From: Lineus longissimus
Lineage: Eukaryota; Nemertea; Pilidiophora; Heteronemertea; Lineidae
Assembly: GCF_910592395.1 (NCBI RefSeq)
Contig: NC_088315.1
Coordinates: forward strand, 1,118,501-1,182,500
Direction of reading: 5' to 3'
DNA: 64,000 nucleotides
The notes below the pieces were generated by a model. The model was not told the origin of the DNA. It was given only the letters and a program-made list of their open reading frames with translations, and searched no databases. Shown piece after piece: positions 2,667 through 51,765 of this stretch. A program made the translations under genes and the position numbers. Every line of letters begins with the position of its first letter. Position 1 is the first letter of the stretch.

Positions 2667-3125
2667 CCTGACGGTATAGGAATTGACGGTGAGGTAACAA
2701 AAAAACTCGTGGCATATCGGATGCGCATCCGATGACGGTAAAGAAATTGACGGTAAAGGATCTCGTGGCATATCGGATGCGCATCCGAAGACGGTAAGGG
2801 AATTGACGGTGAAGGATCTCGTGGCATATCGGATGCGCATCCGATGACGGTAAAGGATCTCGTGGCATATCGGATGCGCATCCGAAGACGGTAAGGGAAT
2901 GGACGGTGAAGGATCTCGTGGCATATCGGATGCGCATCCGAAGACGGTAAGGGAATTGACGGTGAAGGATCTCGTGGCATATCGGATGCGCATCCGAAGA
3001 CGGTAAGGGAATTGACGGTAAGGGAATTGACGGTGAAGGATCTCGTGGCGTATCGGATCCGAAGACGGTAAGGGAATTGACGGTGAAGGATCTCGTGGCA
3101 TATCGGATGCGCATCCGATGACGGT
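2667..3125. repeat. 56-bp minisatellite array, copy 1
   Basis: About eight tandem units of roughly 56 bp, some shortened, each holding GGATCTCGTGGCATATCGGA and one or two GACGGTAA-type blocks. Every full unit contains an uninterrupted palindrome, TCGGATGCGCATCCGA, which in some units extends to the 18-mer ATCGGATGCGCATCCGAT. Two unit subtypes occur (CGAAGACGGTAAGGG and CGATGACGGTAAAGA). The array ends in GATGACGGTTTTATA followed by an AT microsatellite (3126-3160). A closely similar array, in the same orientation and with the same end, lies at 6590-7113. Long open frames across the array on the minus strand are a by-product of the repeat. Confidence 0.9.
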
Positions 3126-6589: not shown

Positions 6590-7113
6590 GCGCATCCGAC
6601 ATGCGCATCCGATGACGGTAAAGAAATTGACGGTAAAGGATCTCGTGGCATATCAGATGCGCATCCGAAGACGGTAAGGGAATTGACGGTGAAGGATCAC
6701 GTGGCATATCGGATGCGCATCCGATGACGGTAAAGAAATTGACGGTAAAGGATCTCGTGGCATATCGGATGCGCATCCGAAGACGGTAAGGGAATTGACG
6801 GTGAAGGATCTCGTGGCATATCGGATGCGCATCCGATGACGGTAATTGACGGTAAAGGATCTCGTGGCATATCGGATGCGCATCCGAAGACGGTAAGGGA
6901 ATTGACGGTGAAGGATCTCGTGGCATATCGGATGCGCATCCGATGACGGTAATTGACGGTAAAGGATCTCGTGGCATATCGGATGCGCATCCGAAGACGG
7001 TAAGGGAATTGACGGTGAAGGATCTCATGGCATATCGGATGCGCATCCGAAGACGGTAAGGGAATTGACGGTAAAGGATCTCGTGGCATATCGGATGCGC
7101 ATCCGATGACGGT
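6590..7113. repeat. 56-bp minisatellite array, copy 2
   Basis: About nine units of the same repeat as at 2667-3125, same orientation, same palindrome (TCGGATGCGCATCCGA), same two subtypes and the same terminal GATGACGGTTTTATA followed by an AT-rich tail. Two units carry a shortened GGTAATTGACGGTAAAGG spacer. The array stops about 180 bp before the GLEBS exon. Confidence 0.9.
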
Positions 7114-7725: not shown

Positions 7726-7866
7726 TAATTCTCGTCGCCAAAACACGTCACCAAATCTGATGTATGCCATTGGTCAGTTTTTTGACAACCCACTTGTCCT
7801 TATCGTGATAGACCAAGGCCTTCGATATTAAGAACCATGGCTCACTTTAATTGATTGGATACAAAA

Positions 7867-9840
7867 ATGTTTCTGCGGCGGGCGCTTCGTTTCTCCATAA
7901 AGGCCGGGATCAACAACCATGGGCGTGGTCTCCGGGCCCTCACACAACTTGCTGGCCGACCGGGCATAGTTGACGAGGAAACGTTCAGGTATCCTAAACA
8001 CTTAGGAAGTTACCGAGATGATTTACCATTCGGGATTAACGGCGACGGCGTAGAGAAGACGAACCTGGAGTCTTATTCTCGCGACATCCGTCCGAAATTA
8101 GACCAGTTGCTTCTAAAGCACGGGGGTGTCATTTTCAAGGGGCTACCATTGGATTCCAGTATTGAGTTTTCCCGGTTCATTCGGGCCCTTGGCTACGATG
8201 GTATGGATTATGTTGGTGGTGTGGCCTCGCGTTTGAAGATTGCCGAAGGAGTCATTGAAGCCAGTACGTACGAAGAACATGAAGACACGATGGAACCTCA
8301 CTGCGAGATGGCCTACTTCTCCGTATTTCCTCATCTCGTTAGTATCAATACTAGTTCGGCATTCAAAGATTTCCGAAAGGAGAAAATGGAGTTGCATTAT
8401 ACTCATTCACTCACTCCTGCAACTTGACAACTCCTTACAATGTAGTATGTGGTTTCAAATTGTTGCTACTGGAGGAAAAGTTGGCAAATTGTCTAAATGA
8501 CGTTTCGATTACGATTTTATCTGAGACTAACTCACACTTGTCCATGTCATAACTAACCTTTGTGCTTTATATGCCTCGGGCCACATTTTGTCTTTATGTT
8601 TTCTGTTTCAGTTTTTCCTCTATTGTGAAGTCGCCCCATCAGCGGGTTGCGGGGGAGAATGCGGGGTGACAGACCAGAGGGAAGTGCTCCTGAAACTGGA
8701 CCCAGAGGTGGTGGAAAAGTTCAAGAAAAAGGGCGTACGGTACCATCGCTGCTTGACGAATAGAGACACCCCCAACCCTCTTCATGGCTATGGCTCTTGG
8801 CAGTCGGTAAGGACATTATTTCTAAAGGACGAGTGTCCGGGACCGAAAAGATTATATCGGTCGCTCTAGGCTCTGGGACCTGCATCTCAATCTGTCATTA
8901 AACAGGACGAAAACATTGATTTCTGATACAAGGAATTCTCTAAAAATAACATGTTGTGGTCAAGGTAGATCATTGATCTGTAAGGTCAATTGATAAGACC
9001 CGCTCCGGCAAAGGAAGACGCGCTTGTCCGACAAATGACTTTTACAGGAAAAATGTCTATAAGTTTTATGAAAGGAACCTTGAAACAGTACATTCGTACT
9101 TTTTGTGTCATAGTATTTTTTTGAAATGATATGGCCTACCGGCTCGTTGTTCAGAGAAAAGAAGTAATTTCAAGACGATCCATTAAATCGTACATTGTCT
9201 TATTTTCATTCTAGTCCCTGAGAACCGACGATCGCAAGGAAGCCGAGAGGAAACTGGCGGAAGCTGGTCATCGCCCTGATCAGTACCATTGGAACGAGGA
9301 TGGCTCTCTGAGATTTTGGACTACATCCCAAGTGCTGGTACCACATTACAAAACAGGTACAGTACACGTGAGCATCATACTCGCATAAGGACCGATTCAA
9401 CTGGAGCGTTTCCTCCCTTGGTCGGTGCGGCAGCAGATTGTCAAAAATGAGCCAAACATGTCTCGTGAATGTAACCCTAATACATGTACATGTAATATCA
9501 ATCTTTTGTTTCAGGCGAGATGATGTGGTTCAACCAGGTCGACAGCATGAATTGGACCTACTTTAAAAGCAAGACAGGCAAACTCTACGACCTGCTTAAG
9601 AATGAAGACCCTGCCATGTCTCCCTTCACAACATACTACGGAGACGGCACAGACATAGAACCCGATGTTCTACAGCACATCAGAGAAGTACAGTGGCGGT
9701 GTACCGTCGCCGAACAGCCGCAACAGGGAAATGTCCTAGCGTTGGACAATATGAGAGTTGCACACAGCAAGTTTGGTTACAAGGGTCCGAGGACGATGCG
9801 GGTTGCACTTGCGCGTTGGGCGGACAGCGATTCGAAATAG
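7867..9840 (+). CDS. TauD/clavaminate synthase-like 2-oxoglutarate dioxygenase
   Basis: Four coding exons, 7867-8337, 8612-8806, 9215-9356 and 9515-9840, join in frame (phases 0, 0, 1) to give 377 residues ending in TAG. All introns are GT-AG. The ATG at 7867 is the first after an in-frame stop at 7852. The basic, Asp/Glu-free start (MFLRRALRFS) suggests mitochondrial import. The protein is a TauD-superfamily Fe(II)/2-oxoglutarate oxygenase: the proximal metal pair is H145-x-E147 in EPHCEMAYF, the distal His is about residue 353 in DNMRVAHSKFGYKGPR, and the Arg for the 2-oxoglutarate carboxylate follows in GPRTMR. The HxE form and EMAY context are closer to clavaminate-synthase-like proteins than to gamma-butyrobetaine or trimethyllysine hydroxylases. 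Substrate is unknown. All catalytic residues are present, so it should be active. Confidence 0.9.
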
Positions 9841-14588: not shown

Positions 14589-15978
14589 ATGAAGACCCCT
14601 CACCACATCAAAGAGTCGCTGGTGGTCTTTATCTTATGGGCAGTGGTGACGTACATACTGTGTGTATACTGGAGTAGACAGCGACCTGTCATCGTGATCA
14701 TCAATGAAAGTAAGTCGAATCAACCCACCTTCGTTCGTCTGCAGTGTTTAAATGTCGCCCCCAGGTGGAAGAAAGAAATCATGGCCGAATTACAGTCATT
14801 TCAGAGTCAGAGCGATGAGAGTGGTAGATACTACAAGTAGTTCGATACCAACCCACATTGTTCAATCGAAAGGGACAATAGGTAATGTAGAAACTCTTTT
14901 GTATTAGGCCTGTGTGTGCGAGTCAGTGCGTGCCGGCGTGAGTCAGTGCGTGCCCTTGATAATGCGTCTGTATTCTTCACGATATATCTACATGTACCTT
15001 CTTCTTTCAGGTTTTTATATAAAGTCGGGGTTCAAGCACCAGCCACGGGCGCAGTCAAAAGCTAGCGAGGCCGAGCCGTGGCGGCATGGAGCTTCAACAA
15101 AAGAAGAGAAAAGTGTTCACCCGTTTCCCTTCTTCGAGGAAAACGTGACGGACTGCCATCGATCAGCGATTGGAGTAAACAAGCCACGTGGTACCAACGG
15201 CAAGGGTGTGGGGTATGGGCGCCAGTGGCCGTTGATGCGATGCAGTGGTCACACGAGTGTAACGGAGACCTTGTGCAAAGTCCTCGCAATGCAACTCCAG
15301 GAGTGCGAACGTCAGCAGCTGCTTCAAATTGTGGACGCCTTTCAACAGTTTGCGAAATCGAAACAGTTGGTGTATTTCATGGGGAAGAAAATGTTATTAG
15401 GATCTTGGCGCCATCACGGTCTCATCCCGTATGAACGAGATTTGACGATATTTGTTAGCAGTAAAAACAAAATGGACGTTATCAAACATTTCTCTGGATT
15501 AAATGCTCTCAAGATGAAAAACCTTGACACGAGCTCACTAAGACTTTCCCCGAAATCACCTATTCGTCTCCACAACACAACATATGTAGACATTCTGTTT
15601 TTCGAAGAAAATGGAACACATGTTTTTCATATGTCATCAAATGATACCTCGTACCTCATAAAGAAAACCCTTGTCTTCCCAACTCACATGAGGCCTTTTG
15701 GTCCTTTTGACCTTTCAGCTCCCAAATCGTCTGCTGTGATTCTGTTCGAATTATTTGGTGATGCTGACATGTGTGGAAGCTATAGTGCCAAAGTGCCGTG
15801 CTCGGATCTTAAAGGTTATGTCGCATTCGTTTTCCGACGCGTAGCGGAGTTCATGGGGCCAATCGAAGAGAGGCTGGGCTGGGGTAATCTTAGTTTACAG
15901 TTTGAATTTCCGAGAGAAGACATTCACTCTGTTTCAGTCAACCCTTTCACATTGAAATTGCCGAAACATAGCAATTGA
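14589..15978 (+). CDS. Fukutin/LicD-like type II membrane protein
   Basis: Two coding exons, 14589-14709 and 15011-15978, join in phase 1 to 362 residues. The donor is AAA|GTAAGT and the acceptor TTCTTTCAG. Exon 1 encodes a short N-terminus and a signal anchor (about residues 10-28, SLVVFILWAVVTYILCVYW), giving the type II Golgi/ER topology of ribitol-phosphate transferases. A spacer leads to the LicD-like core at about residues 150-260: YFMGKKMLLGSWRHHGLIPY then ERDLTIFV, where LicD proteins have a G-T-x-L-G-x-x-R-x-x-x-(F/L)-I-P-(W/Y) motif and an Asp cluster. A second conserved strand (TYVDILFFEE) follows. The usual acidic D-D-D-I-D cluster is reduced to E-R-D-L-T, so catalysis may be altered or lost. 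It is shorter than vertebrate fukutin or FKRP, about 460-500 residues. A LicD-like family member is likely; orthology to fukutin itself is not established. Confidence 0.75.
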
Positions 15979-21219: not shown

Positions 21220-22323
21220 ATGACTTCTAGTGATATTTCCCTCTTGCTATTGACATTTGCAATTGGGACTGGTAAGTACATCCCTCTGTGATCCCAACAT
21301 GCTGTAAAAACATGGCAGATAGCATTCTGCATGGAAGAACTTCAACGCCCGTGTGAAAAAAAAATGCACATGTGCATAACATTGAAAAAAGAGTGATTGC
21401 TGTCAAGGTTCCTCAGGCACGTCCGAACATCAGTCATGTGACGAGCTATCCTGACGCCTCAATGGTCGTTGCTTTAACGTTGATAGAATACAAAGAATGT
21501 CCGATGGTTTCCAAACCATGCAGTGCAGAAACCACTGTTCTCGTTGACAACCAGCAATGATTGTCAACATTTCCTTTAAGCAAGGGCATGTCAATCAGGA
21601 TGGGTTTCCACCGACCAATCATGTTACCTACTTTCGAAGACCGAAGCCACCTGGGAGGAGGCGAGAGCAGCATGCTTCCAGCTGGATGCTAATCTGGTGG
21701 TCATTGACAATCCCGTGGAGTTCGCCCAGCTTTCTGCAATATTGAATCAACGCGGAGACCACGCACCAAGATGGCTTGGAGGATATTTCTTGCCACGTCT
21801 TCAACCGTGTATGTCTTCTTCTTCGTGTCCTTCCTTTATATTTTGTCCTTTAAAATGTTAATCTATCACCAGCAGTCATGTGATTCGTCGTAAATATGGT
21901 ACCAAGATTGATGATGTGTTGACTGCTTCTGGTCTTTGATGACCTATTCATCGATTTCACCTCGTGGTTTTCTCGTCGGTTACCTTCACAAAGAGCCAGT
22001 GTATGTACATCCGGGCATCAAGCTTCTATCGGTCTGTTCAAAAGCAAGATGGCGGCAAGATCGATTTGATGAATATTAGTTGGCTTAGTTCCTTAAAAAT
22101 CTCAAATTAGCCTAATAGATCTATCCCTCTATACTGATTCCAGATTGGTTCTGGGATGATGGTTCAATAATCCCCCGACAGCAGTACTGGACAAGACACA
22201 AACCACCTCACCACAGCACCGTACAGGGCAGGTGTGTTTCTCTTGCCTCCCGCCAGGATAGGAGGCTGGACAATGATGGCTGCCTGGTGAAGAAGAAATA
22301 TGTGTGTGAGAGAAATGGTCATT
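21220..22323 (+). CDS. Mosaic gene exons 1-3: signal peptide and C-type lectin 1
   Basis: Exon 1 encodes a 17-residue hydrophobic leader (SLLLLTFAIG). Exons 2 and 3 encode a C-type lectin domain, about residues 18-153: ACQSGWVSTDQSCYLL, TWEEARAACF, LVVIDN, WLGGYF, then WFWDDG and a terminal KKKYVCERN. The Cys pattern of the long form is kept. The EPN or QPD sugar-binding motif is missing from the loop between WFWDDG and the late Cys, so calcium-dependent sugar binding of the standard type is doubtful. The exon 2 donor is CCGT|GTATGT, not the nearer GTGTAT; only it preserves phase. Confidence 0.85.
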
Positions 22324-25300
22324 GTGAGTGTCTAGTCGCCGTCCTATTCAGTCGTTTTCTTCTTCTTGTCCATATCGGTACACATCTGATGAATGCTTCT
22401 AATGCATAGAGACCATAGAGGCATAAATCTACCACCTGATTACCACAGTGACCAGCGTGTGATTATGATAGCGAATGACGGATGTCGGAGCATGTCGGAT
22501 GTGCAGTTCTGCTCTGTGCTCTACGCATCTGGGAATAAGATTTCGGTAGACCATTTCAGTGACTTTCTTTTAACATCAACAATAAATCACGTCATATCGT
22601 GTGTTTTTTGTAACTTCTGGTTAACAATGTAAGAGCGGGTAAGATGAAAGAAAAATCTTGACATGGTCAAAACCTCCATGACCCACTTACCTACATACCT
22701 TCTGTCACAGTATCCTCCTTTGAATTTCATTGCCCCTTTACAGATCAATACCTGACCTGGTGCAACGGAGACGCAGCCGTGAAACTTACCTGCCCTCACA
22801 ACCAAGTTATCAAGATCGTTAGCTGGAAAGTTGCTCCCTCCAAATACCACAAGAGCTGCAAGGTTTATGATCAAGCCACTGCGTATCATAATAAGCCGAC
22901 CCAAGGATTCAGAGATGTCGTGGCCTTGTGCAACATGAAGAATTCATGCACGTTCAAGTTTTGGTTCGTTGAGATGTGGCGCCCATCGGATGTGTGTTAC
23001 CCTTCTATGTCATATGTTACGTATGGCTGCCATGATGCTATAGGTAAGGCAGTATCTATTGACAACATCGATTCAACTGGAATGTTGGATCGACTGGATT
23101 GCACTTCGAATCCCAATCGGGCTTGTCTCCGACCGTGAATAGCATGGCCATCATCATTTAATTGTACATTGCTATACAACGGGTTTTTTCAGAGTGCCCG
23201 CCACTGCCTCAACACGGCGAGCCAACCAAATGGCACGCCTACAACGGCCACTGTTACGGATCTCACACGCAACACTTGCCCTACCCTGAGAGTGAGAGAA
23301 TATGTAAGACGTATCCAGGTGGTCATCTGTTCTCACTTTATTGGGAGGAGGAGTTTATGGAACTGAGGCAGAATGATGTGTAAGTGAAACATTGTCTATT
23401 CAATAGCTGTAAGACATGTTCCAAAGAACAAGATTCGAAAGAATTCAATAGATTTTTCCCGATGGTTTCCATCTGTATTATTGTCATCACAACTCAACAT
23501 TGGTTGCTTTTGTTTGTAGTATGTGATGCATTATATTTGACCACTTGGCAATGGTGATAATGGTAATGGCAATTACAGCTTAGAATTGCAGTCCAAGGGA
23601 AGGCCTCTCTGAGCTCTTAACATCTTCAGCGAGAACACTGAATACGGTTTCTACGAGTGCTTCATGGTGTCGTTACGAGCTCTTTTATTTTTTCCATTAG
23701 GTTGTATGGTGTCGGTTATGGTGACAGACTCGGGATACGGTTCAACCCTTCGAACAGGGAATACACATACGCCGACGGCCACTTGATTCTCTTCCATGAC
23801 TGGATATTCACCGGCCTGACTGGCTACTTGCTGAGCCCAGGGTACGGCAAAGGGACTTGTTTCTACAGACCGCGAGAGGTGACCAAGGGTGTGCAGATGG
23901 AAATGTGCGCCGACCCAAATGTTTTCATTTGTAAAGTTCCCAATCAAGGTAAGTCAAAAACTGAACCAAACGTCTGTGGTCTGCTGAAGCTAATTGAATT
24001 GTTGGTAAGATAAAGAGCTGTGAGTAAGAGCTGTTTTCAAATATTTGTCGCGGTTTCCAGTTTCCGAACACGCTTCTGAACACCGAATTCAAATCATTAG
24101 CTATGCTTTCGACCTTTCATTGCAGCATGCATCAACCCAGTAGGCCTGCAAGATCCAAACCTTGTCCCAAACACCGCCATTACAGCCTCGACCTACGTGG
24201 ACGACGCGCATGCGCCTCAGTTTGCTCGCCTGAATGGCCAATCAGCGTGGTGCGCACGCAGCGCGGGAAAATCGGTGGACTCGGTTGATTTCCTGCAAAT
24301 CGACCTTGGACATCTTTCACGTCTCTTTGGCGTGATGACACAGGGTTTGGGCAGTTACTGGGTGACCAAATACCAGGTCCACGCCTCCATTGATATGACA
24401 ACTTGGCAACCGATCAGATACCAATGGGGTGATCGGGATTTTCCCGGCAACAGGGACGGCTCGATCATCTTGACGAACTACTTCCGATGGATTACTTTGG
24501 GGCGTTACGTTAGAATAGTTGTTAAAGGATGGCAAGGCATGCCATCATTGAGAGCGGAACTACTGGCCTGTAGAGGTAGGACCATCAACAGTTATTTTCA
24601 TAAAACTGATTATGTAATGTACACTTACAAAGTTTACCACTGCCACCCCCTTGGATGAGACGAACATTTCATTCTCTCTGACATTCGCCTCTTTCGGCAA
24701 GCCAGAATGTGGGACTTCCACACACCAAACAAAAACCCTGTAAGCTATCATAGCCTTTGGTTTCTGAGCCGAACGAGCAAATACATGTTTATGGACAGTG
24801 GCGAACGGAAAGGATTTCCTGCGGAGTCTTGGCAAGTCTGTTCGTCACCAATGAGGAGGCGTCTTCGGCTTTATTCTATGAAATTCACACGTTTTTTCCT
24901 TTTCGACCTCTAGTCGATGGTGGTTGGTCACAATGGAATCAGTGGGGTCCCTGCTCTTCATCTTGTGGCAGAGGAAGACAGCAGCGGTCAAGGTCATGCA
25001 GTAATCCACCAGCGCTGTATGGAGGGACTATTTGCAAAGGTGTGGCAGTTGAAGACAGGACATGTTCACCACAACCTTGCCCAGGTAATAAGGCCTTTAT
25101 ACCCAAGCACGAAGTCAACTCGAATAGTTGCTTTAAAAGATCTATTAAAGAAGATCTTTTTATTTCCAATCTAACTCAACATCTTGTTTAAACACAGACG
25201 AAGAAAGCCACGTGACCTTAAGTGTCACGGTTTTTTTATATTCAGCGACATTTACGCTGGCAGATACTACTCTTACAGCAAATTATTATTGGCGTCAGCT

Positions 25301-28300
25301 TAAAACTTATCGCAAGAACACTGGACCTAAATCTTTCAGTGAATGGTATGTGGAGTAGCTGGAGTCCGTGGGGACCGTGTTCAGCGTTTTGCGGTGAAGG
25401 GAACCGCACTCGGACAAGGCGATGTGACGACCCTGGACCCGCTCACAGCGGCCATGCATGCCGCGGCCAGAGGAGTGAACAGGAGAAGTGCATCAGGAGT
25501 AACTGTCTCGAAGGTGTGCCATCTTGTCCTTTTCTTCTGTCAGCCGTTTTCCTCTTTTATATAACAGTACGGACATTTATTCCCTGCGGATTTTCTTACC
25601 TGGAAAGCACAGAAGAGATCGTTGCGCCATCCTGCCCTAGAAGGGTCAGCGGTCTTAAGGGTTGCACCTTAAGTATGTTTTGACAGTACCATGTTCTGTA
25701 TGTGCTCATTATCATGTGACAATACTTTCAGGTGAACTTGTCGAGCATTTCACAGGATGCTTCAAGGAAAACCTGACGACAATAAAATTTGATGAGCAAC
25801 TTATGAATGTGACATCGCGACCACAGTGCATTGCGGCGTGCATGAACCAAAGCCAATCAGATTGCACGGGGATCTCTTTTCAAGATGGCGACGATCCGAT
25901 ATGTTTGATATCAACGTCGAGTTTGACTGTAGGAAACGGAAGTTCAAAAGTTACCCATGAACGGTCTGACCAGGAAGCCTCAACCATGGACAGGGTTTGT
26001 TTCTCAGATCTACTCACTGAGACCTGGTGGCGTATCCGTCAAACACTGGAGGACGGCAGGACTACTGTGTAAGTAATACAATGGCGGCCGGTGACATTCA
26101 TCCTGCATACCCTCAGAGACACAGTGTAGACGTCTCTGTTGGCAAACACTCTCTTTACTCATATAAAGACAGGTCGTTTCTGCTCTAATCAATTTAACAC
26201 TTTCTCCCTGGAACATAATTTCCTTTCAAACCGACCGACTGAAGCTTTAACATTTCTCAGGACGTTTTCAATTGCTGTTTGTTGTAGAGATCTCAGCGCT
26301 CGCCGTCTTGGGTCTGCCACCCACCAGCTTCAGGTTGAATTGTTGGATGGTCTTCCCTTTGTCACGACTCTGTAAGTATGCATGCAGAATATATGATACC
26401 AGTCTTGTTGTGTAGTGAACAAGTTAGTTTATTGAAGGGGGAGGGGCAATGTCATTTCCTTCTACTTCGAAAGAACGTACTTGTATAAAGGAAAACCATG
26501 GAAAGTGGCACTTAACATTGATGTATGTCAATCCCGCCCTCCCTATATGCCGAGTGTCCCTCCTAAGTTCAGTCATGCTGCCTCTGTCAGGACTATCACA
26601 AAACTGATGGCTAATATACAGGAATACATGTACTTCGGTAATAATAGATTCGTAGGTTTATTACATTTCAATTTGTTTTCAGAGATCTGAGCTGGAATTC
26701 CCTCCAAAGTTTGCAGGAGGATCAGTTCAGAGGAGTTGAAAACTTGGTGGAACTGTGAGTAAATAGCTGAAATTATAGCTTCATGATATTCTACATTTGT
26801 TAAATGCAAACCCGAAAGATTCGCTTCAATCAATTCGCTATCGTTGTCTCTTGACAAAAGTGCCTTAAAAAGCAGATCTTTAAGCATATTCACCGGCAAA
26901 AACAGGAATTCCTAGTTAAGAATCTTGTCTTTTTCCAGAGACCTTCACGGCAACCAGTTGTCAGTGTTACCAGAGAACGTCTTCAGTAAGCTCATCCATC
27001 TTGGGTCATTGTGAGTATGCAATATCAGCCTTCACAACCTTCCCCTAACCTAAGTTACATGTGCACTATGTGGGTTGTAATCATTTCCATTGGCGTCACC
27101 CCCAAATCGTACTCTACCATTAAGCACCTGCTCAGAAAGGATCCCTATAGCATATCAACGTCTCTCAACTGTATCTCTTTCGTTCTTCAGAAATCTTCGT
27201 GACAATAACTGGCGACACATCGACTCAACTCTTCATTACAAGCCACTTGCTCAACCACCTGTTCTCCGAAACATTGCAATGTGAGTATGTCATTAAAATC
27301 CACATCTAACATATTCTGCCGAATCACATCTCAATCGGTTGGTATGGTAGATATAAGGCAGAACCGTTGCCCATGACTTGATTCTGGTTCAAGTCCGCTT
27401 GCCGGTGCTTATAGTTATCTTGCAAATGGAGCAAGGCGTAGGTTCCGTCTAGAATCTGCTTTCCGCAATCAGTAACGTCAGAGGGCGACGAGAGGTCGTA
27501 CAAGCATGCTTACTGCTTGACATCCATTTGGCTGGGTTTTATCTACCGAAATAACCTCAAATGAAAATTTCAAAACGGAGCTGAAATAGATGAACTGGAG
27601 CATTGACAAAACCATTTCACCCCGTTTTTTGCAGAGAAAAAGACAACGTTCTCGTCAACTTTGACAACCCGAACGACTTCCACTCGAACAATGATTACCA
27701 AGAATGTGGATGTGCGCATTACGCAATCGACACGACCGCTTCTGAGCATGTCATCATCCGGGAACTTTACTATGACCTTGGGAAGCTCAATGACTACCTG
27801 AATACTCCGAGTGTCAAGAAGGTCTCCATCTTCGCGCAGACGGTAGTGCTGAAGCAGACGATACCAGTGTCTGTGCACTTCGACTTGGAGATTGTCACGA
27901 GGGAATTTTGGATGGACGCTCAAGCTGCTTTTCAGTTTGATTTTCATTTTGTTGATACGAAGTTGCATGGATGTGATGTGTGGTTCAGTAGGAGCAGCCT
28001 ACAGACCGGATCGCTTACCACAGTCAGGTGATTATGTCAGAGGTTAAGACAAATATCATCTCGCCATCAGAGAGCTGGATAACAGAAAAAGCAGAAGCTG
28101 TACCGTAACGCAGTCATGGTATCCATAATCTCCTTCGTGGTAGTTCACTTTTCCTACTGACAGAATTGCCTCTCACACCTGCTAATATCGATTCCGCCTA
28201 CACTCCATTCCGTATCCTAGAATCAAATTGTGACCATTTTTACTTCTAGGTACAGATATAAGACCACATACACCGTCTACATTGAGGCAATGACTATACA

Positions 28301-31300
28301 TGCGCCTTTCACTTGTCATCCAGACTTCGGAACCATAGATGATGCAATACCAGGTCCAGATCATCACCAACTGATGACGTCAACATACTGCGCCCGCCAG
28401 CTAATGGAAAGTGTCGAAAAGAAGCTGAAAACCATCCGATCCAGTTTACCTTGGAAAGTGATGACCTACGTCAAGGCCGTAACATCACAGGTCAGGTTAT
28501 CACATCATGAGAATCTGAATCAATCAGCAGCAGTTGCGAACTTGGCAACAGATCAGCTGATCGACTGGGAAACCGCCAGAGCGAAGAATATTCGAACTGT
28601 CCCGTACCTTTCTTCTCAGGCGCTGAAAGAGCATCTGGGGCTGGTGAAGGACTTGCTGGAAACCTTTGACAGAGAATGGAAACATCTTGAAAATGCGCAG
28701 CTTCACCTGGATTCCAGGTTGATTGCTGCTAAAATCATCATTGGTAAGTTTGTTTGTAAGATGCATTGAAATGACCATTACTAGTAATCAGCACCTTATG
28801 CATCGACGAACGAAAACTGCCCACGTCAAAGGGTCACCCGCGATGTAACTTAAGTTCAACAGTTTTTTGCGGGAAAACCTTATCATGGATTTTCTTCCCG
28901 GATTTTCAACTTCACTAACGACCACCCCCGTAACGTGATCATTCAACCTCGGTCCCATGAGTGGTCGTGTAACCGGGGTTCCACTGTATCTGACTTTCCA
29001 TTCGTTTTCAAACCTCCAGGCAAATCCAAACTATCGCTAGTAGAGAGGGAGATGGACTACAATGCTACTGTTAACCAGTTCCAAATCTCAGTGAAGACTC
29101 TAGCGAAGATACGCAGCCAATATTACTTCAGCGTGAAAGTATTCATCGACGCAAAGGGCGTCTTTGAGGAAGCATTGCAACGCCTTAAGGTCACACAGAT
29201 CATTGAGACGATTTTTAACTTTGGGAAAGCGGTATGTCTATAAGGTTAAGTTTGATTAATTTTCTTGTCTCGATACCATTCGTCGGTGTTGGTTGGCCAA
29301 GGCCAGGTGGCCTACTACATGATAGATTCTGAAGCATGAGCAGTCATGATACCAAGGTTTTGATTGGGCGAAGGTTGCTGGGATGAAATGAGCTGATCAC
29401 GAATATGGCTGCCATATTTGAGTGACATCATCGACCTGAACACAAACCCCGGCTTTAAAAGATTCAATCATAATCAAAGTATAAATTGCTGATAATTTCT
29501 TTTTAGCTTGCAGCTGCTGCATCTGTAGGGATGGCTGGAAATCCAGCCGGAGCTATAAAGCAGGTCGTCTTGGCCATCGTCACTCTCATAAAGGACATGG
29601 TGAAGCTGATGAACAAATTGGAAAAGCTTTTCAGGTAGGACATCTCACAGCACTGATAGGTAAAACGTTTTAGGAAATGACGATGGTTGGCGATAACCGA
29701 ATTGGCAATCTACTTATACCCATGCAGGAATCGACATTATGCTTTTTACTTCTGCTTATTTAGTAGATGATTATTTCACGAGCATGACCAACATTTCTTT
29801 CCTCTTGTAGAATAACAGACCTGTTGGCTCGAGATGTCAGGAATATCGACCCGAAGATCTACGTGGATTATGCTGACATTGAAGAGATGGCAGAGTTATC
29901 AACGAAAGTCATCGTCTGGAAGACGATGCGAACCACAGCTGAAAGTTTCCTAAGCGTGCAAGACTTTCAACATGTGAAAGGTAGGCACCGACGAAGACCA
30001 ATACCCATTGCAGCTGTGAAAAGCTCCCGATTAGATTGATGTGCCTCTTTTTGAAGCTTAAATACTGTGAGATACAGAGTTTTCAGGTTCAAAAGTGTCA
30101 TTACTCATATTTTATATCTTGTTAAATATACCTATTATGACAACAGAAAACGGCTTACAATAACTAATTATGAGACACTGTAGTTAGTGCATCGCCAGTC
30201 ATTTGCCGAATGGTCTTCCTCATCGCCGCCTTACCTTCTACACGAAACAAACTTTTTAGGAATGATCACTGCTTGATCGGCAGTGTACATGTTGGAGGGC
30301 TGCACCATGGGAAGCTGAGTCTTAAAATTCCTAAAAACACCATTTTAAAATTCAATACACCCTTTGTTGTGTCTTTTATAGGTTATGGGCAATACAGGAA
30401 ATCGCTGCTGGAGGTTGCCCAGTGGGGTGAAGCCCTCAGCCGCGAGGCCATCAAGCACGCAAGACTATCTACACTGGTTATAAGCAAAAGATACCAAGTT
30501 GCTCTCCTGAATTCGGAGTGGAAAAAACTACAACTCGTCTACCAGCACGCGCAAAAGAGTCACGCCATCACCTCAGAATTACTGTTGCAGACCAAATTTG
30601 AGGCGTTTAATTACCAGTTGCTTGCCATCGATAGTTTGGAGACGTATTGTAAGAGCCACTTCTATTACTATATGAAAGAGTGTAGTACAACCATAAGACC
30701 GAGATTAGCAGATTCACTCAACAGCATTGCAATAAAGATCCAACAAGCGAAGCTGTTGCAATTCACGGTAAGACATATTTTCTGGAAATTGATGTGAAAC
30801 TGAATGATATCAGGATTACTGAATACTGTTAGATAAATGTTTTTAGGGTCAATACATTAGGGCTTTCACGTTATATCTTCAGTGAGAAATCATTACTTGT
30901 TGGCAACAGATTGGCACTAAAATCCCTTGTTATACCTCGCTGTACGTCAACAGCTAATATCAATCGACCTCATATCACCTTGCCTTTATTCTCATTTGAA
31001 AATACACTCTTCGATAGACTGCTTTTTACTTGTTTCTTCGCGTCACGAAAGAAAGTCACTAACACAATTCATAATTGTAGGTTTTGTCCGGGATGACTTG
31101 CCCCGTCCAGAGCACCAATCTACGCGTATCGTTGGTAGACCAGGTTCCACCAGACCAGTGCAACAGCAAGATATGCCCGGTCAAGCAACTCAAGGAGAAC
31201 CGCGAAACACTCTTTGAAATTCGCCTTGATCGTCCCGAGTTTGCCAAATATCAGGTGAGCACACTGCACACCTTACCCTTGTGCATACTGGCGACGAATG

Positions 31301-32382
31301 ACGCCGATTCTCTGGCGACTACTCCATGTACGGGCGGTTCGAATGAGTCCATGACTCAACCATGTTGTGACTTTAGTAGTTCTTTCGGGAACTAGAGTTG
31401 TGCTACAAAAACTTTTATCGGCAAAGCCTCCTGCCACGAATGGCACACCACAGAAAAGAGCTTTGTATTGCATTTTTTGTTTGGCCATGGCTGCAGCTGT
31501 TCCTGTGTATCCTACGACTGGTTTCATTTTCATCATTATCTTTTTCACTTTAACACTATTTGGCTAAATGCTTCGAATCTCCGTGGCAAACGTCCTTCAT
31601 TATAATTCATGTGTTCATCAACTACATTCTCCTTCAGCGAATCCGAATCCGAGAAATTCGCATCTTCCTACCAGGTGTCATGATAAACAACACTAGACAG
31701 GAGCTGAACATCCGTATCTCCAACGACGGCGCCTTCCAAGACCGTTACCGCGGCAGCAACTATAGCTTCATGAGCATGCCGAGGAGTTTGACCATTAGGT
31801 ATAGGATTGGTGCTGGTACGTATCTCAGATGAGGGTCCCATTGCATCTTCATCCTGATGTTTCACCAAGAACCGATTGTGCGAATCGTCTCCGCATATAC
31901 ATGCGTCGAAAGCTGGCAGAATAACGATGCTGTTGAATTTTAAATGGCTGGCTGTTCTGCTCTGTAGGAACATAATGCTTCAGGAACATAATGCTTCAGT
32001 TCCAAGTTCTTTCATAGAGACCTAGTTCTCGTAAGAGAAGGTAACGAAGCCCAGGAAGGACGCCATTCATTATTATTTCCTCTCCTTAATTACAGGCTCG
32101 TTTCTTGAACCTGGATGCATTGACGGATCTCATGCGCGATACTTCTCTGAAATGCCACCATTTTCAACATGGACGATCATCGTTGCTAAGGATTCCAACC
32201 CTGACCTTGACCTTTCGAATGTCACAGGGATTGACATCTTCTTCCTGGCGTATGCGACCAGAGCGGACCAGTGCGCGAATTTCCGCGGTTCTGGGCGAAA
32301 GCGTCTGCACTCTCCGGGACAATCTCATGACGACTTGGGCGAGAGTACTATTTCACCAGAATGTAAAAGAGATTTTTATTAA
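21220..32382 (+). CDS. Secreted mosaic: lectins, discoidin, TSP1, LRR, helical rear
   Basis: Twenty-three exons join in one frame: 21220-21271, 21581-21808, 22144-22323, 22744-23043, 23193-23379, 23701-23948, 24126-24575, 24914-25084, 25340-25513, 25732-26068, 26288-26371, 26683-26754, 26939-27010, 27191-27280, 27635-28027, 28250-28743, 29020-29231, 29507-29634, 29811-29980, 30382-30767, 31081-31254, 31638-31815, 32096-32382. The total is 5067 nt, 1688 residues plus TAA. Every intron is GT-AG and phases match at each junction. Order: signal peptide; C-type lectin; SUEL lectin; C-type lectin; F5/8C; TSP1 twice; PAN-like module; four LRRs; then about 800 unassigned residues that are beta-rich, helical, then beta-rich. 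No internal membrane anchor is evident after the signal peptide, so it is probably secreted. A polyadenylation signal lies at 32646. I know no described protein with this full order. Block entries below give details. Confidence 0.85.
22744..23043 (+). CDS. Mosaic gene exon 4: SUEL-type (galactose/rhamnose) lectin domain
   Basis: One phase 1-1 exon encodes residues 154-253. It follows the SUEL/rhamnose-binding lectin layout: WCNGDAAVKLTCPHNQVIKI at the start, a central variable loop, VALCNMKNSCTF, then an aromatic-rich strand and a closing VTYGC. Six of the expected Cys positions can be seen, but the sugar-contacting loop is divergent. Known members bind galactose or rhamnose or act as adhesion modules. 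Confidence 0.7.
23193..23948 (+). CDS. Mosaic gene exons 5-6: C-type lectin domain 2
   Basis: Residues 254-398. ECPPLPQHG precedes WHAYNGHCYGS and a helix with ESERICKTYPGGHLFSLYWE, then a long loop and a C-terminal NVFICKVPNQ. It is a divergent C-type lectin-like domain; canonical EPN/QPD and WND motifs are absent. The exon split inside the domain is phase 2, unlike the phase 1 split in the first C-type lectin, so the two did not arise by simple recent duplication. Confidence 0.7.
24126..24575 (+). CDS. Mosaic gene exon 7: F5/8C (discoidin) domain
   Basis: A single 450-bp phase 1-1 exon encodes residues 399-548. It starts ACINPVGLQD and ends ELLACR, the two Cys that close the domain. Typical features: ITASTYVD, LNGQSAWCAR, FLQIDLG, VTKYQVHASID, then GRYVRIVVKGW near the end. 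These modules bind lipid head groups, glycans or cell-surface proteins through three loops. Confidence 0.9.
24914..25513 (+). CDS. Mosaic gene exons 8-9: two thrombospondin type 1 repeats
   Basis: Residues 549-605 and 606-663. Repeat one contains WSQWNQWGPCSSSCGRG and ends TCSPQPCP; repeat two contains WSSWSPWGPCSAFCGEG and ends CIRSNC. Both have six Cys and the W-x-x-W-x-x-W ladder that is C-mannosylated in known proteins. Repeat one also has an S-x-x-C-G site of the type that is O-fucosylated; repeat two has A-F-C-G and lacks it. Each is one phase 1-1 exon (171 and 174 bp), the standard shuffling unit. Confidence 0.9.
25732..26068 (+). CDS. Mosaic gene exon 10: PAN/WSC-like cysteine module
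   Basis: Residues about 664-775. Contains FTGCFKEN, then PQCIAACMNQ, DCTGISFQDG and a late VCFSD; spacing of the Cys and the C-x-x-x-C helix are like PAN/apple or WSC modules. Assignment rests on Cys spacing only. The exon ends in phase 2 and starts the phase-2 run of the LRR exons. Confidence 0.5.
26288..27280 (+). CDS. Mosaic gene exons 11-14: four leucine-rich repeats
   Basis: Four phase 2-2 exons of 84, 72, 72 and 90 bp, each one repeat of about 24 residues, at residues 776-881. Cores: DLSARRLG; LDLSWNSLQSL with FRGVENLVEL; LDLHGNQLSVLPENVF; LNLRDNNWRHID. One exon per repeat is the classic arrangement for typical LRRs. No Cys-rich LRR caps are visible, so the solenoid probably packs directly on its neighbours. 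Confidence 0.85.
27340..27405 (+). repeat. tRNA-like SINE head in intron
   Basis: B box GGTTCAAGTCC at 27386-27396 with an A-box-like GGTATGGTAGA at about 27341-27351. It lies in the intron between LRR exon 14 and exon 15. No full cloverleaf was found, so a SINE relic is more likely than a tRNA gene. Confidence 0.35.
27635..30767 (+). CDS. Mosaic gene exons 15-20: beta segment and long helical region
   Basis: Residues about 882-1476. Exon 15 (27635-28027) is strand-like, with VSIFAQTVVL and FDLEIVTREFW, resembling ladder-type beta structure. Exons 16-20 read as long amphipathic helices, for example CARQLMESVEKKLKTIRSSL and SLLEVAQWGEALSREAIKHA. At the junction of exons 17 and 18 (about residues 1236-1285) an Ala/Gly-rich, uncharged turn sits between two hydrophobic helical stretches, a hairpin able to insert in a membrane. 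In alpha-helical pore formers such as the ClyA/Hbl class a similar hairpin is flanked by long helices. I see no sequence identity that proves such a relation; an ordinary coiled-coil stalk is the alternative. Confidence 0.6.
31081..32382 (+). CDS. Mosaic gene exons 21-23: beta-rich C-terminal domain
   Basis: Residues about 1477-1688. Contains CNSKICPVKQ, then IREIRIFLPGV and strands ending SLTIRYRIGA, then FSTWTIIVAKDSNPDLDLSN and IDIFFLAY close to the end. The alternating hydrophobic pattern suggests a beta-sandwich; I cannot assign a family. Exon 22 begins with repeated RIR. The stop is TAA at 32380-32382. Confidence 0.65.
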
Positions 32383-32645: not shown

Positions 32646-32651
32646 AATAAA
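32646..32651 (+). promoter_or_regulatory. Polyadenylation signal of mosaic gene
   Basis: AATAAA, 264 bp after the stop codon, followed by a T-rich stretch. This gives a plausible 3' end for the gene. Confidence 0.6.
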
Positions 32652-34906: not shown

Positions 34907-35400
34907 TAATTGACGCACAATGGTAGATCAACGCATAATGGTAGATCAATGTATAAGACTGTTCGACGCATAATGGTAGATCAACGCATAATGGTAGATC
35001 ATTGCATAAGACTGTTCGACGCATAATGGTAGATCAACGCATAATGGTAGATCAACGCATAATGGTAGATCAACGCATAATGGTAGATCAACGCATAATG
35101 GTAGATCAACGCATAATGGTAGATCAACGCATAATGGTAGATCAACGCATAATGGTAGATCAACGCATAATGGTAGATCAACGCATAATGGTAGATCAAC
35201 GCATAATGGTAGATCAACGCATAATGGTAGATCAACGCATAATGGTAGATCAACGCATAATGGTAGATCAACGCATAATGGTAGATCAACGCATAATGGT
35301 AGATCAATGCATAAGACTGTTCGACGCATAATGGTAGATCAACGCATAACGCTGTGAGGTCGAATCGTGCTAGACGTAGAATGGTAGATCAACGCATAAC
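34907..35400. repeat. 18-bp minisatellite
   Basis: CGCATAATGGTAGATCAA repeated. A run of about sixteen perfect or near-perfect copies spans 35018-35309, flanked by copies broken up by a GCATAAGACTGTTCGA insert, a higher-order unit. Since 18 is a multiple of three and no stop codon falls in several frames, long repetitive open frames appear on both strands (DQRIMV on plus; ALIYHY and CVDLPL on minus). Confidence 0.95.
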
Positions 35401-51119: not shown

Positions 51120-51765
51120 ACTTGTACAATTTAATATGTTTACATATTATGAAAGGTGTGGTAACATACAATGTACTAGTAATACATGTTCACATGCAGT
51201 TTGATACATGGTCACATACAATGTACTAGTAATACATGTTCACATGCAGTGCAGGTCACATACAATGTACTAGTAATACATGTTCACATGCAGTTTGATA
51301 CATGGTCACATACAATGTACTAGTAATACATGTTCACATGCAGTTTGATACATGGTCACATACAATGTACTAGTAATACATGTTCACATGCAGTTTGATA
51401 CATGGTCACATACAATGTACTAGTAATACATGTTCACATGCAGTTTGATACATGGTCACATACAATGTACTAGTAATACATGTTCACATGCAGTTTGATA
51501 CATGGTCACATACGATGCACTAGTAATACATGTTCACATGCAGTTTGATACATGGTCACATACAATGTACTAGTAATACGTGTTCACATGCAGTTTGATA
51601 CATGGTCACATACAATGTACTAGTAATACATGTTCACATGCAGTTTGATACATGGTCACATACAATGTACTAGTAATACATGTTCACATGCAGTTTGATA
51701 CATGGTCACATACAATGTACTTGTAATACATGTTCACATGCAGTGCAGGTCACAAACAATGCTGT
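51120..51765. repeat. 50-bp satellite array
   Basis: About twelve units of 50 bp built from GGTCACATACAATGTACTAG, TAATACATGTTCACATGCAG and TTTGATACAT. Units are nearly identical in the middle; an early unit is shortened at CAGTGCAGGTCAC and the same shortened form ends the array. Degenerate GGTCACATA motifs continue to about 51910. Confidence 0.95.

Follow-up and report, generated by a model that had tools for sequence, protein, structure and literature searches.

In the bi-component alpha-pore-forming toxin XaxAB, as described in passages of the work on it, subunit A activates subunit B, which forms the transmembrane pore, and neither of the two inserts alone (PMC6086661). Animal proteins in which a lectin is joined to a pore-forming part are also on record, and excerpts from the mollusc literature give perivitellin-2 and MytiLec-2/-3 as examples; the pore part is of the MACPF type in the former, which has lectin and pore chains, and aerolysin-like in the latter, and both have fronts far simpler than that of the worm protein treated here. 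Text passages on c-lectin1-39 of Lineus ruber, from which the comparison was made, describe a C-type lectin-like domain (CTLD) combined with other domains, leucine-rich repeats (LRRs) among them, and the same module order possibly occurs there (PMC9835746). The subject of the present work is a gene on chromosome 8 of the nemertean Lineus longissimus, found at 21220-32382 on the + strand of a stretch of 64,000 nucleotides (contig C8:1118501-1182500), which is called the window below and to which positions refer unless another contig is named. Its predicted product begins with a signal-like start, continues with a row of recognition modules and ends in a rear of 806 residues, for which homology to a plasmid-borne protein of Vibrio and Pseudoalteromonas is well supported by sequence comparison. 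In these bacteria the protein is encoded beside alpha-xenorhabdolysin subunit A, and we hold the chances to be evenly balanced that the worm product is a secreted, lectin-aimed membrane-attack protein with a B-like pore part.

The preliminary description had left the rear unassigned, and it does belong to no Pfam family (best E value 0.033), but it is no longer an orphan, given its profile-profile homology to a bacterial family. Three parts can be told apart, all on the + strand: an N-terminal beta region in exon 15 (residues 882-1012, 27635..28027), which matches worm paralogues in BLASTP from module residue 22; a helical block in exons 16-20 (residues 1013-1476, 28250..30767); and a C-terminal beta domain in exons 21-23 (residues 1477-1688, 31081..32382), which carries a P-F-S-T-W motif and runs to the stop codon. 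Within the helical block lies a hydrophobic hairpin at about residues 1236-1285 (29193..29617), which is split by intron 17 and has the highest hydropathy of the protein. The first relative of the rear was P0002, an unnamed worm protein of 1146 residues, with 35% identity across a stretch of 136 residues in the C-terminal beta domain. A search of the worm genome with the rear recovered the nine exon stretches of the gene itself, plus another three loci, one each on C1, C10 and C4; these three paralogues are 21-24% identical in their main open frames, which have 476-585 residues, and the mosaic gene divides the stretch matching those frames into several exons. LDLa exons are present upstream of the C10 and C4 paralogues (E 3.2e-9 and 7.4e-7), so the related genes probably bear other fronts.

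The link to bacteria came when 72,556 plasmid records were searched by tblastn with the C-terminal beta domain; six of them matched (four Vibrio and two Pseudoalteromonas, E 2e-10 to 4e-7). The worm rear and the bacterial protein, called the partner here, are about 21% identical and share a collinear arrangement of an N-terminal beta motif (KVSIFAQT...IVTR in exon 15, aligned with bacterial KIVVFADT...IFAR), a helical block with a hydrophobic hairpin, and a C-terminal beta domain with a P-T-P-F-(S/T)-x-W motif; unlike the worm protein, the partner is paired with a subunit A gene and lacks lectin, TSP1, PAN and LRR matches in Pfam. With hhalign, the worm protein plus P0002 aligned with the bacterial proteins over 506 columns (probability 99.6, E 1.3e-23), and adding the three worm paralogues gave 515 columns and an E value of 1.6e-31. 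The three paralogues alone reached a probability of 96.4 (E 1.3e-9) against the bacterial family, and the helical block 96.7 (E 4.3e-10). All 21 reversed, block-shuffled or column-shuffled controls were weaker than the matching real comparison, and the lowest E values among the controls were 1.2e-4 with the whole, 0.024 with the helical block and 2e-6 with the beta domain, where the 20-column blocks of the control retain pieces of the real motif.

It might be argued that the bacterial link is an artefact of coiled coils or of composition, and the helical block lends itself to this argument, as it fails on its own in single-sequence BLASTP (23.9 bits, a score reached by 7 of 200 shuffles, with 26.6 for the reversed sequence). 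Module residues 1-190 likewise gave 17.7 bits against the bacterial proteins, which is not significant, and because of these failures both links rest on profiles and alignment. The beta domain, in contrast, matches by itself at 65.5 bits, and the whole rear at 74.3 bits, where 200 shuffles gave no more than 29.6; the collinearity of the parts and the far weaker scores of reversed and shuffled profiles point the same way. We therefore regard the artefact as already largely refuted and scarcely credible. The case for homology is direct in the beta domain, and is made by profile and collinearity in the helical block and by the shared motif and the worm paralogues in the N-terminal beta region.

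The setting of the partner in bacteria is what gives the rear a predicted function. At the four loci opened, the partner has 782-799 residues and begins 87, 129, 127 and 89 nucleotides downstream of a gene for 407-412 residues on the same strand. This upstream neighbour is alpha-xenorhabdolysin subunit A, matching NF033928 at the three loci scanned with 276-287 bits, where the cut-off is 125; matches above the cut-off were seen in all four bacterial records tested and in none of 14 control genomes. The best solved relative of the neighbour is Cry6Aa (4e-17), followed weakly by YaxA (0.003) and XaxA (0.026). Full-length partner and subunit A are confined to the same six of the 72,556 plasmid records and are adjacent by coordinates in each of them, Gloeothece being a seventh record that is absent from the hits of the subunit A search. 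Three Vibrio records score identically and the two proteins from Pseudoalteromonas agree to 99.6%, so that the records represent about three independent lineages. The classical B subunit (NF033927) was found in none of four bacterial records searched and, by position, the 800-residue partner would fill its place. The partner was unmatched in phages. Among prokaryote and viral contigs, pattern scans brought up no confirmed relative, and the later plasmid tblastn suggests that these scans were too insensitive.

The Gloeothece verrucosa record offers a second bacterial setting. Its protein WP_013335057.1 (L032:4207-9228, on a plasmid) has 1673 residues, with a MACPF match (E 3e-4, 21.5 bits, exactly at the cut-off) followed by the helical and beta module. 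It was matched by the bacterial profile with an E value of 1.5e-11 and by the profile of the worm protein plus P0002 with 1.1e-9. It shares with the worm rear a helical block and a C-terminal beta domain, and differs in its bacterial origin and its MACPF-like N-terminus, the similarity being weak and detected by profiles only. No MACPF domain was found in the worm protein by Pfam scan.

According to the mechanism that we propose, the front of exon-shuffled binding modules would dock on a surface that bears glycans or lipids. The rear of about 800 residues, with its helical block, hydrophobic hairpin and beta domain, would then oligomerise and insert in the membrane, as the partner would in a bi-component alpha-pore-forming toxin. 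The strongest hydrophobic 19-mer of the helical block falls at alignment columns 691-719 in eight of nine relatives, Gloeothece being the one that differs, and such a peak might correspond to the membrane-inserting tip that marks the helical bundles of the ClyA superfamily. The likeness to XaxAB and YaxAB consists in the subunit A that adjoins the bacterial relatives and in the long helices with a hydrophobic tip proposed for the rear; the differences are that the rear is unmatched to subunit B and has beta regions at both ends. It had been guessed at the outset that the C-terminal part is an effector, and this gains support from a family whose members adjoin subunit A genes, while the activity itself, including any action of the worm protein on membranes, is something that we infer.

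Several results, together with the BLASTP failures given above, weigh against a pore-forming rear. NF033927 was unmatched in NCBIfam by P0001 (the NCBI model that contains the rear), by P0002 and by three bacterial partners, and subunit A and the 800-residue partner have no detectable shared sequence. tblastn of the helical block against the plasmid records found nothing. A PDB search gave no solved relatives of the rear at E values up to 1, and with the family profile, too, no solved pore former was matched; the best PDB match of the nine-sequence profile was the coiled coil of Fes kinase (E 0.015). AlphaFold models of P0001 and P0002, made from two-row alignments, had a mean predicted local distance difference test score (pLDDT) of about 32, at which the fold is not established; in both, long helices are followed by a domain of seven or eight strands, and this is a hint as to the order of elements only. 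The Gloeothece protein lacks the conserved hydrophobic peak, and its comparison with the worm protein alone (probability 6.7) or with the three paralogues (2.2) was not significant. To these must be added that the worm genome gave three matches to NF033928, none of them above the cut-off.

These results leave room for a rear that is homologous to the bacterial partner and yet no pore former, being instead a rod-like scaffold of helical and beta parts by which the lectin front would be multimerised or anchored, as in an opsonin or a matrix adhesin. The failure to match the structure of any pore former agrees with this, as does the fact that the role of the bacterial partner is judged from position only. 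NCBI names the front ‘coadhesin-like’, and adhesive proteins often contain TSP1, F5/8C, SUEL and LRR modules. A soluble scaffold, however, would have no need of the hydrophobic peak that is kept in eight of nine members, nor does it account for the two bacterial settings, in which members of the family are neighbours of pore-former genes or of a MACPF-like domain, and we consider it unlikely.

Other candidates for the rear were tried and dropped. A resemblance to the C-terminus of the Tc toxin A component was considered and found no match in Pfam or in PDB at E values up to 10; the fungal STAND ‘Goodbye’ domain (PF17109) over the hairpin scored 16.7 bits against a cut-off of 24.8 and was not among the matches of P0002; and VPS13_VAB, PROCT and DUF948 were below threshold.

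If the rear is B-like, an A-like subunit might be sought in the worm itself. Two of the three NF033928 matches are near-identical open frames of 423 residues on C7 (19859062-19859829 and 19879051-19879671), in which long coiled helices flank a hairpin of strong hydrophobicity; the third, on C9, looks like low-complexity sequence and was dropped. In hmmscan the C7 frames matched alpha-xenorhabdolysin A with E values of 1e-9 and 2e-8, below the cut-off, and MakA with about 1e-5, and they match coiled-coil families as well; weak NF033928 matches also occur in 4 of the 14 control genomes. Against bacterial subunit A, hhalign gave no confirmation, with a probability of 5.5 and an E value of 0.007 that hardly improves on the 0.025 of the best control, and a PDB search of the frames showed no pore former. 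It is possible that they encode an animal alpha-pore-former. A wider scenario would have animals capture the partner of a bi-component pore toxin from marine bacteria, duplicate it (four worm copies) and, in this gene, place it behind eight exon-shuffled recognition modules, so as to obtain a self-aiming membrane-attack protein in one chain, perhaps with an A-like subunit of its own in the C7 frames; we put this forward tentatively and think it somewhat doubtful.

The gene itself had been described as 23 exons forming a single frame of 1688 residues, and an independent rebuilding from raw sequence arrived at the same structure, with all 22 introns GT-AG, one reading frame across the 23 exons and the stop at 32382; the codon scores also bear it out. 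In 22 of the 23 exons, all but exon 8, the score in frame was higher than in either of the other frames, and in every exon it stood above the intron mean (-0.30); since the training set was residues 242 onward, the mainly independent test is limited to exons 1-4. Exons 2-4 passed it clearly, and the short exon 1 scored -0.14, within the intron range (intron maximum -0.06). Exon 1 (residues 1-17, 21220..21271) supplies the start codon and a hydrophobic, signal-like N-terminus, with a hydrophobic 19-mer at residues 6-24 of mean 1.22. An AATAAA that may serve the full gene as polyadenylation signal is found downstream of the stop (32646..32651, + strand). An open stretch at 22450-22545, between exons 3 and 4 and preceded by AG, is a possible alternative exon; judged by eye its phase does not fit the main exon-3 donor, and it was excluded from the gene model.

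The front modules, all on the + strand, are encoded upstream of the rear in the order that the preliminary description had given for eight of them, and Pfam and phmmer uphold that order, weakly for two. The first CTLD lies in exons 2-3 (residues 18-153, 21581..22323; Lectin_C E 1.7e-13, residues 39-150) and is followed in exon 4 by a SUEL-like domain (residues 154-253, 22744..23043), a phase 1-1 exon for which the SUEL_Lectin match has an E value of 0.0057 and 17.4 bits against a cut-off of 31.4. The second CTLD, in exons 5-6 (residues 254-398, 23193..23948), has no Pfam match and was recognized by phmmer to solved CTLDs (E 4e-5). Exon 7 encodes an F5/8 type C domain (residues 399-548, 24126..24575; Pfam E 1.4e-18), exon 8 a first TSP1 repeat (residues 549-605, 24914..25084; TSP1_spondin, best stretch 554-604) and exon 9 a second (residues 606-663, 25340..25513; TSP_1 E 2.1e-20 for two stretches in the protein, best stretch 611-661). 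A PAN domain is found in exon 10 (residues 664-775, 25732..26068), where PAN_1 scanned alone gave an E value of 1.3e-4 and 22.2 bits against a cut-off of 21.4, and within a long piece 0.0078 and 16.5 bits, under that cut-off. LRRs in exons 11-14 (residues 776-881, 26288..27280; LRR_8 E 4.2e-11, residues 801-858) complete the front. The assignments of the SUEL-like domain and the second CTLD are weak but plausible, and those of the remaining modules appear sound.

As far as exon 10, introns at the module borders are of phase 1, and the exons of the LRRs have phase 2-2; such a phase pattern of module-border introns is the usual mark of exon shuffling. Modules of carbohydrate-binding type are present, more weakly in the second CTLD and the SUEL-like domain than in the first CTLD, and sugar binding itself is predicted; no calcium site of the EPN/QPD type was seen by eye in either CTLD, so that sugar binding is not assured. 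That the front aims the protein at its surface is, in the same way, a prediction. The SUEL-CTLD2-F5/8C part matches only itself in the worm genome (11 candidates scored), and three homologue searches with the protein returned the two NCBI models of the gene itself, P0002 and, with the TSP1 part, an anemone protein; these searches demanded shared exact 5-mers, with 7994, 590 and 3699 candidates scored, and an absence from them means little.

In NCBI the locus is represented by two models, both truncated, whose meeting point is exon 10. P0001 (LOC135492704, ‘uncharacterized’, 1001 residues) equals residues 688-1688 letter for letter and starts at an internal methionine, residue 688, within the PAN domain; P0003 (‘coadhesin-like’, 454 residues) equals residues 242-664 letter for letter and starts at an internal methionine near the end of the SUEL-like exon. 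The latter is like coadhesins in its F5/8C and TSP1 modules, and the name covers residues 242-664 only. P0003 extends exon 9 by 53 nucleotides into intron 9 (25514..25566, + strand), and with this alternative donor after 25566 it joins the exon-10 acceptor of the main model out of frame, reaching a stop 14 residues later.

A split of the region into two genes had been named beforehand as the finding that would tell against a single mosaic, and the existence of these models gives it some substance. There could be two products, a secreted lectin and TSP1 protein that stops in exon 10 and a distinct protein made of PAN, LRRs and the rear module. An AATAAA lies within exon 10 only a few bases past the P0003 stop (25781..25786, + strand) and could end a short product, which may therefore be real; this signal counts against the single-gene view. 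P0002, moreover, bears the rear module without a front recognized by Pfam, and the stretches read upstream of the three paralogues, searched by pattern scan only, showed no signature of a CTLD, F5/8C or TSP1. On the other hand, both models begin at an internal methionine and lack the signal-like exon, and P0003 already splices exon 9 to exon 10, through a donor that scores -0.5 against 6.9 on the same scale for the donor at 25513 (5.7 leave-one-out), with a site after 25697 scoring 7.4 left unused. The main splice holds one frame through all 23 exons, keeps the PAN domain complete and provides the hydrophobic N-terminus. Two separate products thus seem quite unlikely to us; most likely there is one gene, which we expect to give a single transcript, and the NCBI split would be explained by faulty annotation or by a short isoform, the latter possibly made beside the full product.

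The use to which such a protein would be put can be approached from the nemertean literature. The same pore mechanism might serve in a toxin of the mucus or proboscis, directed at prey and predators and not at microbes, and the excerpts consulted do ascribe many protein toxins in mucus and proboscis to nemerteans. In the available text of one toxin paper, though, the words xenorhabdolysin, C-type lectin, coadhesin and hemolysin each have 0 occurrences (PMC10674772), and passages on Lineus ruber discuss its C-type lectins with variable domains, LRRs included, as possibly immune (PMC9835746). The multi-module front also resembles recognition proteins. Use as such a toxin is, in our judgement, improbable, and we infer a role in defence rather than in development for the lectin-aimed membrane-attack protein.

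Elsewhere in the window, an upstream neighbour gene is indicated by an open frame at 7855-8427 with a TauD/TfdA dioxygenase match (E 8e-8). A frame of 356 residues at 14908-15978 had no Pfam match at 0.1 and may, from a motif seen by eye, encode a LicD/fukutin-type transferase. A 56-base tandem repeat with the same unit occurs at 2706-3125 and 6601-7113, overlapping long and mutually overlapping open frames of the minus strand, which it probably explains. Two further tandem arrays are found downstream of the gene, one at 34913-35349 with an 18-base unit in 24.4 copies and one at 51159-51744 with a 50-base unit in 11.8 copies (96% match).

A lectin and a pore part in one animal protein are of a kind already known; for the module family at the core of this one, and for the module order, no description was found among the listed titles and summaries of open-licence papers, which is weak evidence of absence. 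The present comparison flags a locus for which NCBI carries two truncated models, and it turns an orphan rear of 800 residues into a testable family that spans marine bacteria, a cyanobacterium and an animal. If the module does form pores, it would represent a further route from toxin parts to aimed animal effectors, in this case with an unusually rich aiming part.

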